This document shows positions 34-5,766 of a DNA stretch of 41,582 nt, one piece after another; within the stretch, counting starts at the first letter, position 1, and the number at the start of each line of letters is the position of its first letter. The stretch comes from Alphaproteobacteria bacterium (GTDB taxonomy: Bacteria; Pseudomonadota; Alphaproteobacteria; Rickettsiales; SXRF01). Made by a program: the position numbers and the translations under genes. The notes below the pieces were generated by a model. That model saw only the letters and a program-made list of their open reading frames with translations. It was not told where the DNA came from and ran no database searches. The stretch is from contig JANYBV010000025.1 of NCBI GenBank assembly GCA_025360605.1, forward strand, positions 1 through 41,582. Direction: 5' to 3'.

Positions 34-758
34 ATGAATAAAACGTCAATTTCTTCTTGGTATTTATATTCTCAGGCATTGGCTCTTAGCTCCTTCAGTA
101 TCGCTCAAGCACACTGTCCGCTAAACTATAGCCACTTCAATATGGCTACCGTGATGATCTCACGTTCGGCAGCAACCTATCCTTGCAACGCGTATCACAA
201 AGCACACAAGGCTCAAGCCGCGCCGACTCCAACTGGGGATTGGGCGACAGTGAATTTTTTATCCGTAAGCGCCTGCTCGAAAGCAATGGTTTTGTCGCTT
301 CGGTGGAGCCGCTTATCAAGTTACCTAGCTTTCAGTCTTCAGGACAAGATACCCCCAAGTTAGGCGCCTCACATGGGGATATCGCACTAGGATTATCCAC
401 AGGTTACGGCTTTTCAGCGTTTCAACTACCCCATTTTATCAATCTCGACACACAGTACCGCTATCGTCTGGGCGCTGCCAAAGACCAGATCAAAATCGCA
501 GCCACTAGCGGTTTTCACGTCAGCAGCGCATGGATGATAATGCCGCAGGCTTTCGTGACCTACCGCACCACTACTCCGCGTCATTCAAATTTCACACAAT
601 CATCGGGGGATGATTATAACCTTGTGCGGTTCCAGCTTTCGGCTGTGTACGCACTCACGGATGCCACCTCATTGCAGTGTGGTGGATTCACGGATATCGA
701 CGGCAAGAATGCCGGACGCGGGAAAGGAGTGCTGCTGGCATTATGGAAGCACCTGTAG
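34..758 (+). pseudogene. Frameshifted outer-membrane beta-barrel protein gene
   Basis: Two reading frames together look like one secreted protein. The frame from ATG 34 begins with a signal-peptide-like stretch (MNKTSISSW, a hydrophobic run, then SIAQA-H). From about 132 the coding quality moves to another frame that has no start near it and reads QYGYRDDLTFGSNLSLQRV, then alternating aromatic and polar strands up to LLALWKHL at 758. One missing base near 138 (in the run cttcaa) would join them into about 241 residues reading NYSHFQYGYRDD across the join. Short amphipathic strands and turn-like Gly/Asn/Asp patches suggest a small outer-membrane barrel; the family is not recognised precisely. 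The 3' end overlaps the start of the glycosyltransferase gene at 743, so the two are probably cotranscribed. It could be a true pseudogene or a one-base sequencing error. Confidence 0.6.
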
Positions 759-2635
759 TCCTACGCGCCCCCGTTTCAGTAGAGCTGCGGACACCACTGG
801 GAACCATCCTCACCACACGCGGCCTGATACTCCGGCATGCGCTGCGCATTCAGCAACGTGACGGTACGCGGCTGGGCGATATACTGATCAGCGAAGGCAT
901 GCTCGGATATTACGGCCTGTATAAAGCAGTCGCTGAATCGTATGGCCTGCCTTTTATCAACCTGCTCAAAGAACCACCCGATGCAACATTGCTGAATGCC
1001 GCCGATGCACAAGCCTACCTGCAATTGCGCCTGATACCATGGCGGCGTGAAGCCGATACTGTCGTAGTTGCTGCTAGTGAAGTCACATTAGACACTATGA
1101 TCTATATCCGCGAATGGTTTGGTGAACACACGCGCATCGTCATCACTTCGCCGTTCGATATCAAGTACGTTGTCGAACAGCATTTCAGTACGCTGATTGA
1201 AGAAGAAAGCCGCTTGTCACTGCGCAACAATCTTCCGGATGCGTCAGCATACCGCACCTTATCCACGCCACAAAAACACTGGCTGGTAGCGCTGTGTATT
1301 CTGTTGCTGGCAGGCGCGCTATTCAATCCGCTGGGCTTGCTGATGGCCTCGCTTTTTTTCTGCCACGCCACGTATGCCATCACCATGCTGTTTAAACATT
1401 TTGTATTTGTCACCGGAAGCCGTAATGCCACTCAACCACAGAATGACGATATCGGGTTGAAAGACCTGCCCACCTATACCATCCTGATCCCGATGTATAA
1501 GGAAGCCGCCAGCCTTCCAGGTATGCTGAAATCCATGCATGGGATGGATTATCCGGCATCGAAACTGGATATCAAGCTGGTGCTGGAAGCTGACGACACC
1601 GAAACACTCGATAAAGCTTACGAACTTAAACCGCGTTATAAATTCGACATCATCCGCGTTCCCGCAGGCGAGCCACGCACCAAACCCAAAGCCTGCAACT
1701 ACGCACTACGTTTTGCGCGCGGCGAGTTCATCACCATATTCGATGCCGACGACCGTCCCGAACCTACGCAACTAAAAAAAGCGGTGTATGCGTTTCGCAC
1801 CTTGCCGTCCGATGTAGTGTGCCTGCAGGCGCGCCTGAACTATTATAATGCGAACGACAATCTGCTGACGCGCTTTTTTGCGCTGGAATATTCCATGCTA
1901 TTTAACGTTATACTGGGCGGGCTGCAGCGGCTTGGTATTCCTATCCCACTCGGCGGCACCAGCAACCACATCGCACTCGAACGTCTGCAACTACTCGGTG
2001 AATGGGACCCATATAATGTCACCGAGGATGCCGACCTTGGTACGCGCCTGTCGGCACGCGGATTCCGCACGGCCATGATCGACTCTTATACCATGGAAGA
2101 AGCACCCAATGAATACGGCGCGTGGATACGCCAGCGTTCACGCTGGATCAAAGGCTATATGCAGACGTGGCTGGTGCATATGCGCCACCCCGTCACCTTG
2201 TGGAATACACTGGGCTGGAAAAGTTTCATCGGATTTCAATGCTTCATCGGGCTTTCCACCTTCACATTTCTCACCGCACCCATTTTATGGGTGGTGGCAC
2301 TATTGTGGTTAGGGCATGTCAGTATTCTGGATCATGCCCCATTCCCGAAAGCGCTGATCTGGCTCACCCTTGCCAACCTCGCCTTTAATATAGTCAGCCA
2401 CTGGTATTACACCGGCTTATGCGTCTGGCGTTACCACACGCACCGCGGCCCCATGGCGCTGGCGGCGCTGGCATTTCCGCTCTATTTGGTCATGCATTCC
2501 ATCGCCAGCTATAAAGCCTTATGGCAACTTATTGTAAAACCTCATTTTTGGGAAAAAACCACGCACGGGCTGACCCATGCGGTGCGACGACAAAGCGCCC
2601 AGATAGCCCCACAGATAGCTGTTTTAGTAAAATAG
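743..2635 (+). CDS. Membrane glycosyltransferase family 2 with N-terminal MshEN/GSPII_E domain
   Basis: A 630-residue inner-membrane processive-type glycosyltransferase. Residues about 25-140 match the N-terminal domain of type II secretion ATPases (MshEN fold: LGDILISEGML, then ESYGLPFINL), which in related proteins binds c-di-GMP or acts as a docking module. A pair of membrane segments follows, then a GT2/cellulose-synthase-like catalytic domain with DADD (D334-D337), GGTSNHI, TEDAD (D429, D431) and QRSRW (Q464, R467, W468). Further membrane segments lie at the C-terminus. The ATG at 743 is preferred over upstream in-frame codons because GGAAAGGAG at 721-729 is a good ribosome binding site. 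The sugar donor and product are unknown. NfrB-like and cellulose-synthase-like enzymes share this architecture. Overlap with the outer-membrane protein gene suggests a polysaccharide synthesis/export pair. Confidence 0.85.
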   Translation: MEAPVVLRAPVSVELRTPLGTILTTRGLILRHALRIQQRDGTRLGDILISEGMLGYYGLYKAVAESYGLPFINLLKEPPDATLLNAADAQAYLQLRLIPWRREADTVVVAASEVTLDTMIYIREWFGEHTRIVITSPFDIKYVVEQHFSTLIEEESRLSLRNNLPDASAYRTLSTPQKHWLVALCILLLAGALFNPLGLLMASLFFCHATYAITMLFKHFVFVTGSRNATQPQNDDIGLKDLPTYTILIPMYKEAASLPGMLKSMHGMDYPASKLDIKLVLEADDTETLDKAYELKPRYKFDIIRVPAGEPRTKPKACNYALRFARGEFITIFDADDRPEPTQLKKAVYAFRTLPSDVVCLQARLNYYNANDNLLTRFFALEYSMLFNVILGGLQRLGIPIPLGGTSNHIALERLQLLGEWDPYNVTEDADLGTRLSARGFRTAMIDSYTMEEAPNEYGAWIRQRSRWIKGYMQTWLVHMRHPVTLWNTLGWKSFIGFQCFIGLSTFTFLTAPILWVVALLWLGHVSILDHAPFPKALIWLTLANLAFNIVSHWYYTGLCVWRYHTHRGPMALAALAFPLYLVMHSIASYKALWQLIVKPHFWEKTTHGLTHAVRRQSAQIAPQIAVLVK

Positions 2636-2648
2636 TGCTTGATTTTAC

Positions 2649-2698
2649 AAATGAGAACCATTATCAATTGCGAATGATTATCAATTGCTGCATACTAT
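2649..2698 (+). promoter_or_regulatory. Fur box and promoter of the iron-uptake operon
   Basis: Two overlapping Fur-like sites lie 40-75 bases before the cupredoxin start: AATGAGAACCATTATCAA (2650-2667) and GAATGATTATCAATTG (2672-2687). ATTATCAATTG is repeated exactly at 2660-2670 and 2677-2687, and the elements resemble the GATAATGATAATCATTATC consensus. A weak sigma-70 promoter (TTGCGA 2668-2673, then CATACT 2691-2696) would be covered by the repressor. Control by iron through Fur is inferred from this resemblance and from the downstream iron transporter genes. Confidence 0.8.
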
Positions 2699-2725: not shown

Positions 2726-3079
2726 ATGACATACCAACGCCCACTCGCCCTGCTGTTCGTACTCTCCCTGCTCGCCCCCCTTGGCGCTCTGGCCGAGGAA
2801 CAAGCCGCGAACGATGAAACACAGAATTTTGAAATCGTGATGAAGAATCGTGAATTCTCACCGCTTGAGCTGGTGGTACCGGCTGACCGTAAAATTAAAA
2901 TCACCGTTAAAAACGAAGACCTCTCCCCTATCGAATTTGAAAGCGTTCATCTGAACCGTGAGAAAATTGTCCAGCCACATGGAAAAGTTGATATTTTCTT
3001 TAGCCAGCTTAAAGCAGGAACCTATCGTTACAATGACGATTTTAATCAGGATTCCAAAGGCTACATCACCGTTAAATAA
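2726..3079 (+). CDS. Periplasmic cupredoxin-like protein of an FTR1 iron-uptake operon
   Basis: A 117-residue exported protein: signal peptide of about 23 residues with predicted cleavage LGALA-EEQ, then a single cupredoxin-like domain (EIVMKNREFSPLELVVPA, KITVKNEDLSPIEFES, GTYRYNDDF, GYITVK). This is the EfeO-N/cupredoxin_1 type that accompanies FTR1 permeases. It is thought to bind or oxidise metal in the periplasm before permeation. Two histidines (in ESVHLN and QPHGK) could be ligands, but a classical type 1 copper set with Cys is absent. The ribosome binding site is GAAGG at about 2716. It lies 18 bases before the FTR1 start and directly behind the Fur box, so it is the first gene of the operon. 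Confidence 0.85.
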   Translation: MTYQRPLALLFVLSLLAPLGALAEEQAANDETQNFEIVMKNREFSPLELVVPADRKIKITVKNEDLSPIEFESVHLNREKIVQPHGKVDIFFSQLKAGTYRYNDDFNQDSKGYITVK

Positions 3080-3097: not shown

Positions 3098-4639
3098 ATG
3101 CTTTCCACCGCTCTCATTATCTTCCGAGAAACCATCGAGATCGCCATGATCCTCGGCGTGGTACTGGCCGCAACCCGTAATCTGCCAAACCGCTTCCCAT
3201 GGATTATCGGAGGCTTTGCCTCGGGTGTATGCGGTGCCGGACTGGTGGCACTGTTTACACAAACCATCTCCAACGCGGTATCCGGTATCGGTCAGGAGTT
3301 ATTCAACGCCGCTATATTACTGGTTGCAGCACTCATGATTGGCTGGACGGTATTATGGATGCGCAAGCATGCTCGAGAAATGAGCGCTCACCTCAAACAG
3401 GTAGGGCAAGATGTAACGGCCGGCACCTTGCCTCTATACTCACTCTCCCTAATTATTGGCCTGTCCATGCTGCGCGAGGGCTCCGAAATAGTGATGTTTA
3501 TTTACGGCATGTTGTTGTCGGGACAAAACGGTTCATCGATTGTCAGTGGCACTATCGCTGGCCTTGTGCTGGGTGTTACGGTCGGTGTCATGCTTTATTA
3601 TGGATTATTGAAAATACCTGCGCGCCATGCGCTCAAAGTTACTAGCTGGGTTTTGGTTCTTTTGGTGGCGGGGCTCATGTCACAATCCGCTGGCTATCTA
3701 TCAGCAGCAGGATATTTCTCCGGCCTGTCCACACCGTTATGGGATACGTCATGGTTGCTGTCCGAAGAAGGTATCACCGGAAAAACCCTGCATAGCCTGA
3801 TTGGCTACACCGCCACTCCTACTGCCATTCAGCTGATCGGTTATCTGGGAACCTTGCTATTGCTGTGTATATTAATGCTGCATGGCCACAAGCGGAACCT
3901 GCGCACAGTGGCTGCCGCATCAGTGCTAGCACTGTTTGCACTTGTGAAACCGTCTAGTGCATCGGCTGTAGACCATGTCTATGAGCCTATCGTGACCAAA
4001 GGTGAAGCGTCTGTGGAATATGTAGGTAACCGTACGTTTGATTCGCATGCCGATAAAAACAATGTGCAAGGTCAGCAAGTGGAGTTTGAATACGGGGTCA
4101 CCGATCACTGGAAGGCTATTGTATCAGGCAGCTTTGCCAAGAACCCCTCCGAAAGCCTCAAGATGGAAGCCACCGAATTCGAAAGTGTGTTCCAGTTTGG
4201 CGAACAGGGTGAACACTGGGTCGATAGCGGTCTGCTGGCTGCCTATCATATATCCACCCAGAGCCACGAACCTGATTCCATCGAAGCCAAGTTACTATTG
4301 CAAAAAGATGTCGGCGACTTCACCCATACCGCTAATATCGGTGCAGAAAAAACCATCGGTCACTATTCTGAAGGTACGGGTGGCCCCTCCTATAGCCTGA
4401 TCGCTAATAGCCGCTACCGCCTTGGGGAATATCTGCAACCCGGCATTGAACTGCAAAGTGATTTTGGCAAGGGCCGCACACTTGGTAATTACAACAAACA
4501 GGAACATTATATAGGGCCATCTGCCTATGGACGCCTGTTTGGAAAAATCCGCTATCAAGCCGCGTTATATGCAGGTATCAGCGATGCCGCGTCCCAAGGC
4601 GCTGCACGCTTCCTGCTCGAATACGAGATGCATTTCTAA
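3098..4639 (+). CDS. FTR1 family iron permease fused to a C-terminal outer-membrane beta-barrel domain
   Basis: A continuous 513-residue frame with two unlike halves. Residues 1 to about 265 are an FTR1-type permease: RETIE at 10-14 and REGSE at 126-130 are the two iron-binding REXXE motifs, with about seven membrane helices. FTR1 proteins import ferric iron across the inner membrane. After a basic loop (HGHKRNLR) comes a signal-peptide-like segment (TVAAASVLALFALV, then SSASA with predicted cleavage before V291). About 220 residues of beta-strand pattern follow and end in LLEYEMHF, the terminal Phe typical of BAM substrates. The ATG at 3098 is preferred over the TTG at 3083. Either the product is cut by signal peptidase, or a second start (ATG 3875, MLHGHKRN) makes the barrel separately. 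Family assignment of the permease is secure; the barrel family is not recognised. Confidence 0.85.
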   Translation: MLSTALIIFRETIEIAMILGVVLAATRNLPNRFPWIIGGFASGVCGAGLVALFTQTISNAVSGIGQELFNAAILLVAALMIGWTVLWMRKHAREMSAHLKQVGQDVTAGTLPLYSLSLIIGLSMLREGSEIVMFIYGMLLSGQNGSSIVSGTIAGLVLGVTVGVMLYYGLLKIPARHALKVTSWVLVLLVAGLMSQSAGYLSAAGYFSGLSTPLWDTSWLLSEEGITGKTLHSLIGYTATPTAIQLIGYLGTLLLLCILMLHGHKRNLRTVAAASVLALFALVKPSSASAVDHVYEPIVTKGEASVEYVGNRTFDSHADKNNVQGQQVEFEYGVTDHWKAIVSGSFAKNPSESLKMEATEFESVFQFGEQGEHWVDSGLLAAYHISTQSHEPDSIEAKLLLQKDVGDFTHTANIGAEKTIGHYSEGTGGPSYSLIANSRYRLGEYLQPGIELQSDFGKGRTLGNYNKQEHYIGPSAYGRLFGKIRYQAALYAGISDAASQGAARFLLEYEMHF

Positions 4640-4938: not shown

Positions 4939-5766
4939 ATGAAAGAAAAACACTCCCAGCAGCAAGGCTTTACGCTACTCGAGCTTGCGATAGTGCTGGT
5001 TATTATCGGCCTTATTGTGGGAGGGATTCTGGTCGGACAGGATTTAATCAAGGCAGCCGAAATCAGGGCAACGATTGCTCAGGTCGAAAAATACAACACT
5101 GCCGTCAACACCTTCCGTAGTAAATATGCTTCCATCCCGGGAGATATGATGCAAAGTAGTGCCGCCAATTTCGGATTTTTACAACTCACGTCAAGCCCCG
5201 CTACCGGTCAAGGCGATGGGAATGGATTAATTGAAGGTGGTGCAACGGGGGCAACCTTTGCTGTCGGTGAAACTCTTGCTTTCTGGCGACACCTGTCGGA
5301 TGCCAGCCTCATCGACGGATCCCTTGGAACCATCAATAATAGCGCCATCATTGCCAGCAGCGGTTTACTCACAGGTAACGTGACCGCTGTAGCACAATCG
5401 CTGCCTGTTTCTAAAATCACACCGGTGCAATATTTTGTCGTGTATTCAGCGGCAGGGTATAACTACTACCAGCTCATGCCCATCAACGGCATCACCGCCG
5501 CCACAGGTGCTTATAGCTTCGGCACAACCGGACTTACGCCCATACAGGTGGCCAATATGGATACTAAACTCGATGACGGCCAGCCCTCCACGGGCGTGGT
5601 GGTAGCACGCGGCACCAGTGGCGTAAACACCTCGCCCAGCGTCAACGCCGCATCTGCACCCAATACCTGTACGATTGGCACCGGTAGCGCTACTGACACC
5701 TACAATCTCCAGCTCTATAACGGCGGATCGGATACATCATGCTCAGTGCGCTTCCGGTTTAACTAG
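4939..5766 (+). CDS. Type IV prepilin-like protein with N-terminal methylation motif
   Basis: A 275-residue protein starting with a short basic leader, MKEKHSQQQG, then FTLLELAIVLVIIGLIVGG. This is the prepilin peptidase site (G10-F11) with Glu at position 5 of the mature protein, followed by the hydrophobic alpha-1 helix. The remaining 220 residues are a large Gly/Ala/Ser/Thr-rich globular part with two Cys near the end (APNTCTIG and SDTSCSV) that could form a disulphide. Such proteins are pilins, minor pilins or pseudopilins assembled in the periplasm. No other pilus or type II secretion gene is in the window, so its machine is unknown. The gene ends at 5766, overlapping the 3' end of the convergent motB-like gene by 8 bases. 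Confidence 0.85.
   Translation: MKEKHSQQQGFTLLELAIVLVIIGLIVGGILVGQDLIKAAEIRATIAQVEKYNTAVNTFRSKYASIPGDMMQSSAANFGFLQLTSSPATGQGDGNGLIEGGATGATFAVGETLAFWRHLSDASLIDGSLGTINNSAIIASSGLLTGNVTAVAQSLPVSKITPVQYFVVYSAAGYNYYQLMPINGITAATGAYSFGTTGLTPIQVANMDTKLDDGQPSTGVVVARGTSGVNTSPSVNAASAPNTCTIGTGSATDTYNLQLYNGGSDTSCSVRFRFN

Follow-up and report, generated by a model that had tools for sequence, protein, structure and literature searches.

An FTR1 iron permease joined in one reading frame to a signal peptide and an outer-membrane barrel: a recurrent gene that probably yields two matched iron-uptake proteins

Channels of the inner and of the outer membrane are normally encoded by separate genes. In FbcH of Bradyrhizobium, the cytochrome b/c1 pre-protein, a polytopic inner-membrane protein is followed by an in-frame internal signal peptide and a second protein, and the chain is cut by signal peptidase. 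Among described iron-uptake systems, the closest to the locus presented here are the FTR1/EfeU permeases and the FtrABCD system of Brucella and Bordetella. In FtrB the residues E84, E86 and E93 bind an iron mimic and D118 and H121 are predicted copper ligands, and the available portion of that report names no dedicated outer-membrane partner for FtrABCD (PMC11966278). The COG4313 outer-membrane channels are, according to the available portion of PMC4493636, thought to take up hydrophobic molecules. Here we describe a single open reading frame (ORF) that encodes an FTR1 permease, an internal signal peptide and a predicted outer-membrane barrel. It lies in a stretch of 41,582 nucleotides from an alphaproteobacterium of the Rickettsiales (assembly GCA_025360605.1, contig JANYBV010000025.1), and this whole stretch is called the window below. 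The coordinates of all features are collected in Table 1.

The front part of the encoded protein is clearly an FTR1 permease. Pfam family PF03239 matched residues 1-261 with an E-value of 4.6e-36 and 125 bits, against a gathering cut-off of 25.3, and R10, E11, E14, R126, E127 and E130 of the two REXXE motifs are invariant across 22 aligned fused proteins (alignment A2, 22 of the 23 introduced below; L103 was omitted as a near copy of L100). The scores for two NCBIfam models stayed below their cut-offs, with 132.9 bits against a curated 255 for the EfeU equivalog NF041756 and 103.6 against 303.8 for TIGR00145. Lysine and arginine residues, counted with helix limits that were set by hand from the full-length model, number 2, 2, 2 and 2 in the predicted cytoplasmic loops and 0, 0, 0 and 1 in the periplasmic ones. 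By this positive-inside count the C-terminus of FTR1 should lie inside, and residues 263-290 would thus be correctly oriented for export. The back part, residues 291-513, was modelled by AlphaFold2 with a mean predicted local distance difference test score (pLDDT) of 96.6 as 12 strands, the last of which ends one residue before the C-terminal Phe. The underlying alignment (A3) holds 59 of 62 barrels, with L103, L108 and L119 left out. In the model of the full-length chain (mean pLDDT 80.2, predicted template modelling score 0.46) the FTR1 helices lead via a helix at residues 268-282 into the barrel. Its best 50 Foldseek matches were, judged from their titles, barrel proteins plus some artificial metalloprotein entries; there was no FTR1-like structure among them.

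An earlier note, made from the sequence alone, had described one uninterrupted frame with RETIE at residues 10-14 and REGSE at 126-130, and the translation of 3098-4639 agrees. The seven helices and cytoplasmic C-terminus that it assigned to FTR1 are matched by the predicted helices and the K/R distribution, and its basic loop followed by a signal-peptide-like helix by the SASA end and the conserved A288 and A290. The C-terminal part of about 220 residues with a beta-strand pattern ending in Phe turned out to comprise 223 residues that model as a 12-stranded barrel, and with the pLDDT given above the possibility, raised in the same note, that residues 291-513 form no barrel was not borne out.

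The fused layout recurs across numerous, distantly related bacteria. Six fused proteins were combined into a profile, which was used to search 343 genomes of the order, 385 of the class and 398 of the phylum; these sets overlap in part. Both domains were found in one stop-free ORF in at least 23 genomes, the window's included, a count obtained with a profile that itself derives from fused proteins. Seven of these ORFs belong to the window's order (families f1, f17, f22 and f8), five more to its class, and a further 11 to f214, one other family of the phylum that belongs to a different class. The frame in L108, counted among the 23, reaches the end of its contig, and a search of 74 f214 genomes gave an additional fused frame, in G922, that is broken off by a contig end. 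The loss of a stop codon in this assembly only, which the earlier note had considered, is thus contradicted by fused homologues in 22 other genomes. Separate barrel genes next to FTR1, which it had suggested looking for, were found as well: when the genomes of 55 relatives were searched with the window protein, five further full-length single-frame matches appeared together with several adjacent separate pairs. Genome G1006 was excluded from the fused count as it has two ORFs; in this genome (L109, 1447-3060) FTR1 and the barrel are adjacent and in the same frame, with one stop codon between them. The gene order in L016, L020, L023 and L040 is cupredoxin-barrel-FTR1, the reverse of the fused order. 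Among plasmid records, two of 34 matching ones cover at least 80% of the query, both from Hydrogenophaga and both with separate genes. At 2971-3801 of L132 (G738) a separate barrel gene, located beside FTR1, is broken by one in-frame stop, and the Hydrogenophaga PBL-H3 plasmid has two such places.

We consider it quite likely that the locus is a Fur-regulated iron-uptake operon in which a single pre-protein supplies the channels of both membranes, with the barrel being released by signal peptidase I. One chain, translated from one gene, would then probably give rise to two matched iron-uptake proteins. Under iron starvation, a promoter with Fur boxes would drive the synthesis of a periplasmic FtrB-like cupredoxin and of the single pre-protein that contains both membrane channels. 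FTR1 would insert into the inner membrane by seven helices, leaving its C-terminus on the cytoplasmic side, and residues 263-290 would serve as an ordinary Sec signal peptide at a mid-chain position. A cut by signal peptidase I after A290 would free the barrel into the periplasm, from where the Bam machinery would bring it to the outer membrane. The mature 12-stranded channel, with its mostly acidic lumen, would most likely pass iron across the outer membrane, after which the cupredoxin would bind the iron and FTR1 would carry it inward. The earlier note had proposed the same course, from a C-in FTR1 via an export segment to the release of the barrel, and the results support it; cleavage, Bam-dependent insertion and a 1:1 output are what we infer.

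The connection to iron rests on the company of the gene and on its promoter. An FtrB-like cupredoxin gene lies upstream in all 22 fused operons with enough sequence, the contig of the remaining one (L106) ending there. The iron-site motif EFESxxLxxE, which contains the counterparts of E84, E86 and E93, is kept in the window cupredoxin and, by the strict motif, in 20 of the 22. The predicted copper ligand H121 is replaced by Asn in the window and in 17 of the 22 operons, and is His in the other five. From these residues, the window cupredoxin may be an iron binder that does not function as a copper oxidase. The two Fur-box-like sites ahead of this gene, scored against the 7-1-7 consensus, start 17 bases apart and lie 43-74 bases before its start. 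Such a site (at least 12 of 14 bases) is found close to where the cupredoxin gene begins in 17 of 22 fused operons, and in six of these it is perfect, whereas random windows of the same length drawn from 20 fused-operon loci contained one in 44 of 2000 cases. When judged by mononucleotide shuffling (p up to 0.05), a Fur site precedes all fused operons but L011 and L098 (20 of 22), as well as 15 of 47 separate ones. All operon start codons were assumed by a simple rule. Moreover, the fur gene itself adjoins a cupredoxin-FTR1-barrel operon in L138 (G800) and L141 (G742), and Fur was found in 21 of the 23 fused genomes, including all 14 near-complete ones. The Pfam families of the genes that flank nine chosen fused loci are of housekeeping or mixed function, and no further iron partner was seen among them. 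P19/FtrA (PF10634) was found in none of the 23 fused genomes; of 14 control genomes only Haloferax matched.

The barrel belongs to a family without annotation in the resources that were searched. Residues 291-513 matched no Pfam model at E up to 1, and no NCBIfam model beyond smpB at a chance-level E of 0.14; none of 59 barrels matched NCBIfam at E up to 0.01. Sequence searches of solved structures with the FTR1-barrel profile and with the barrel profile gave nothing meaningful. The nearest solved folds are 5o65 (FapF; Z 21.4, 12% identity) and 4rl8 (a COG4313 channel; Z 21.0, 9% identity). With a limit of E 0.1, PF13557 matches eight of the 59 barrels (lowest E 3.4e-08), with the barrel of L022 barely above the cut-off (23.2 against 22 bits); the window barrel had no match to it in the Pfam search. 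With lumen-facing residues assigned by strand parity inferred from sequence, the predicted lumen carries on average over the 59 barrels 17.6 acidic against 8.7 basic residues, and acidic residues exceed basic ones in 53 of the 59. A lumen of this composition would suit cations better.

These similarities bring up the possibility that the fusion is real, but that the barrel, as a COG4313-like channel, passes small or hydrophobic solutes other than iron and keeps company with FTR1 by chance. The fold matches to FapF and 4rl8, the PF13557 matches including the one of L022 above the cut-off, and the hydrophobic molecules thought to be imported by COG4313 channels (PMC4493636, available portion) all point in this direction. 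We regard this as unlikely, given the constant company of cupredoxin and FTR1 in every readable fused operon, the excess of acidic over basic residues in the predicted lumen, and the absence of a detected TonB-dependent receptor barrel in three fused genomes: PF00593 has no match in the window's own genome (G000), which is listed as 100% complete, nor in G008 and G658, each listed as at least 95% complete (nor has it in three less complete fused genomes). The promoters of barrel genes that stand alone speak against another solute as well. Of 20 barrel genes with neither FTR1 nor cupredoxin in the available stretch, eight are preceded by a Fur-like site (shuffle p up to 0.05), and two of these sites are perfect. 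L129, L130, L126 and L128 have perfect or near-perfect Fur-box sites ahead of such stand-alone barrel genes.

A second alternative concerns the translation of the gene. The earlier note had allowed for an internal start at ATG 3875 that would produce the barrel alone, and more generally one frame could give two products, with the barrel made mainly by internal initiation and the open frame being incidental or serving translational coupling. The in-frame ATG (M260) is indeed present and would begin a good signal peptide of 31 residues in the window, and the predicted Shine-Dalgarno pairing of internal candidates is no worse than that at separate barrel genes. However, a start codon ahead of the hydrophobic core would then be expected to persist, and the position of the start is not conserved. 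An ATG is found between -36 and -20 in eight of 23 fused genes versus 35.8% of control windows, and any start codon in 15 of 23 fused n-regions versus 70.9%, where the control consists of 9264 windows of the same length from the same ORFs. In two genes (L083 and L105) the stretch from -42 to -20 is free of ATG, GTG and TTG, and in L006 the sole candidate is a TTG at -42, inside the seventh transmembrane helix (TM7). Moreover, none of the 23 junctions contains a stop codon despite their varied length. The in-frame ATG is thus not a kept feature of the fused genes, and since internal start codons occur only at chance frequency, one chain cut by signal peptidase I is favoured. Barrel synthesis from ATG 3875, although the codon itself stands, is accordingly the less likely course, and internal initiation as the main source of the barrel is rather improbable; it would be most plausible for individual genes like that of the window, with its well-placed M260.

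The junction has the properties expected of a cleaved signal peptide. In the fused proteins, with the cleavage site chosen as the best in a stretch of 10 residues for fused and separate barrels alike, Ala occupies position -1 in 23 of 23 and position -3 in 21 of 23; a hydrophobic core is present in all 23, and at least one Lys or Arg precedes it in 22. Within the alignment of 22, A290 never varies and A288 is conserved to at least 90%. Of the 39 separate barrel genes, all encode Ala at -1 and 33 encode Ala at -3, here within ordinary N-terminal signal peptides. Six pairs of fused genes were compared: in both domains differences are most frequent at third codon positions, the junction is under less constraint, and no stop interrupts the frame although the junctions differ in length by 0 to 5 codons. 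What is conserved at the junction is its kind and not its exact sequence. Signal peptidase I was found in 20 of the 23 fused genomes, among them all 14 near-complete ones. Alternatively, the chain might stay uncut, with segment 268-285 acting as an eighth transmembrane helix that anchors the barrel domain at the inner membrane. The segment is hydrophobic enough for a membrane (best 10-residue Kyte-Doolittle mean 2.72 in the window, which is also the median of the 23). Nevertheless, this is very improbable in view of the Ala at -1 in all fused proteins, the plain N-terminal signal peptide that separate genes give the same barrel, the change of cargo at the cleavage site within one genus (see below), and a distance of only about 17-20 residues from the end of the helix to strand 1 (residue 303), which we infer to be too short to span the periplasm.

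Several observations weigh against the proposed Fur-regulated operon with a cleaved iron-uptake pre-protein. The window of 41.6 kb contains four Fur-like matches where 2.0 are expected, and as many occur in 15 of 100 shuffles, so that their number by itself does not exceed chance. In L101, L104 and L107, three of the 17 operons with a site, the Fur site coincides with the assumed start codon or directly follows it, so that the true start of these three must lie further in. TonB-dependent receptors (PF00593) are present in 17 of the 23 fused genomes, so in most of these genomes the barrel cannot be the sole iron route. None of the nearest solved folds is an iron channel; FapF is an amyloid exporter, and the COG4313 channels are linked to hydrophobic compounds (PMC4493636, available portion). 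The mean Shine-Dalgarno score of the internal candidates (-4.8) equals that of separate barrel starts (-4.8; p 0.35) and is better than the coding background (-3.4; p 0.002), with p 0.08 in the comparison with FTR1 starts; these comparisons are biased towards internal sites, the best of several candidates having been taken. Finally, residues 266-290 at the junction have a pLDDT below 50 in the full-length model.

The fused genes do not form a single clade. On a carefully built barrel tree (62 rows) the labels fused and separate need 13 changes, at least nine of which are forced by well-supported branches, and a single fused clade is rejected (approximately unbiased test, p 2.85e-7). The quick method gave 11 changes on the same barrels, again with at least nine forced. 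The FTR1 tree (79 rows, quick method) requires 11, at least six of them forced, and its fused rows do not form one clade. A single origin of the fusion was therefore discarded: the barrel tree rejects it and the FTR1 tree does not show it. The change counts do not separate gain from loss, and long branches lead to four of the barrel rows and two of the FTR1 rows. As one fused clade is rejected, fusion or fission has recurred. An assembly or sequencing artefact that deleted a stop codon, for which one could cite the fragmented draft assembly of 57 contigs from which the window comes, is in effect ruled out by the same continuous frame in 23 genomes, the at least nine changes forced on the barrel tree and the codon-position bias on either side of the junction; the observation is real and the layout is confirmed to lie far beyond chance.

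Change is visible among close relatives of the window as well. Its neighbour on the FTR1 tree, L002, has an FTR1 that ends after TM7 with no barrel behind it, in the same neighbourhood with a glycosyltransferase upstream and a pilin downstream. G001, from the window's genus, has two cupredoxin-barrel-FTR1 sets. Within genus g231, G713 encodes FTR1, signal peptide and barrel, and G439 and G547 have the same front part with a different cargo that is predicted to be secreted. In L086 (G547, 389 residues) and L087 (G439, 391 residues) FTR1 and the signal-peptide-like stretch are 74% identical to G713 (residues 1-316 of the 376-residue query). Behind them stands a different small domain, about 78 residues long, which contains four Cys and matches nothing in Pfam. 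G439 encodes its barrel separately, about 3.8 kb beyond this gene. Tails of at least 60 residues occur in only two of 56 separate FTR1 rows, those of G439 and G547. The swap of cargo at the predicted cleavage site supports the view that the two sides are made together and then parted. It is possible, though doubtful, that FTR1 is a recurrent N-terminal carrier which takes up, in its last cytoplasmic loop, an internal signal peptide and exchangeable envelope cargo. With the barrel as cargo this would give strictly 1:1 channels for iron in the two membranes and maybe a cupredoxin-paired, TonB-independent iron path through the entire envelope. If so, this would be a main entry route of iron in lineages without a detected TonB-dependent receptor, such as that of the window's genome.

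Table 1. Features of the fused gene and its surroundings, in window positions
Feature	Position	Strand	Basis or remark
MshEN-glycosyltransferase gene, flanking operon	677-2635		
Fur-box-like site 1 (TGAGAACCATTATCA)	2652..2666	+	2 mismatches to 7-1-7 consensus
Fur-box-like site 2 (TGCGAATGATTATCA)	2669..2683	+	2 mismatches to 7-1-7 consensus
FtrB/EfeO-type cupredoxin, signal-peptide-like N-terminus (by eye)	2726..3079	+	PF13473 E 2.5e-25; PDB 8VUK E 8.6e-8
Fused ORF encoding FTR1 permease, internal signal peptide and predicted 12-stranded barrel	3098..4639	+	513 residues plus stop, translation stop-free
FTR1 permease domain, residues 1-262	3098..3883	+	seven predicted transmembrane helices, C-terminus predicted cytoplasmic
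REXXE motif 1, RETIE, residues 10-14, in TM1	3125..3139	+	translation
REXXE motif 2, REGSE, residues 126-130, in TM4	3473..3487	+	translation
Internal in-frame ATG (M260), possible barrel-only start, not conserved	3875..3877	+	
Junction segment, residues 263-290: basic loop, then internal signal-peptide-like helix with A288-S-A290 (SASA) at its end	3884..3967	+	
Predicted signal peptidase I cleavage A290/V291	3965..3970	+	conservation of A290 and A288 in 22 aligned fused proteins
12-stranded outer-membrane barrel (predicted), residues 291-513	3968..4636	+	pLDDT 96.6; fold matches 4rl8 and 5o65
Pilin-like gene, flanking operon	4939-5766		

The unannotated family of 12-stranded barrels is a candidate for the outer-membrane partner of FTR1 permeases. 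The recurrent single-chain form, moreover, offers a natural system for studying how a signal peptide acts when it lies inside a polytopic protein, and allows one to ask what is gained by a fixed stoichiometry across two membranes. Because fused and separate forms exist side by side, direct testing is possible.

The locus can be compared with several known systems. Like the FTR1/EfeU permeases, the window permease has both REXXE motifs, seven predicted helices and a PF03239 score well above the cut-off, but it carries a C-terminal signal peptide plus barrel and misses the EfeU and TIGR00145 cut-offs. The likeness to FtrABCD lies in an FTR1 that adjoins an FtrB-like cupredoxin with E84, E86 and E93 kept; the window system differs by the additional, predicted outer-membrane barrel and by the Asn in place of H121. 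The modelled 12-stranded barrel is similar in fold to the COG4313/PF13557 channels and FapF (Z 21.0 to 4rl8 and 21.4 to 5o65), yet it is only 9-12% identical to them, is linked to iron genes and is encoded behind FTR1, and its 223 residues compare with 270-320 in COG4313 (PMC4493636, available portion). No FTR1-barrel protein was found described in a limited literature search by title and start of abstract, and the available portion of PMC3827258 describes no fusion; the joining of an inner-membrane iron permease to an outer-membrane barrel was thus, within this limited search, not found described. The locus does show the internal-signal layout of the FbcH type, with one frame, a predicted C-in membrane protein, a basic loop, a hydrophobic core and A-x-A. 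None of the literature matches listed mentioned fbcH. The processing logic would resemble that of FbcH, with the difference that both products of FbcH remain in one inner-membrane complex, whereas the second product here is a predicted outer-membrane barrel.
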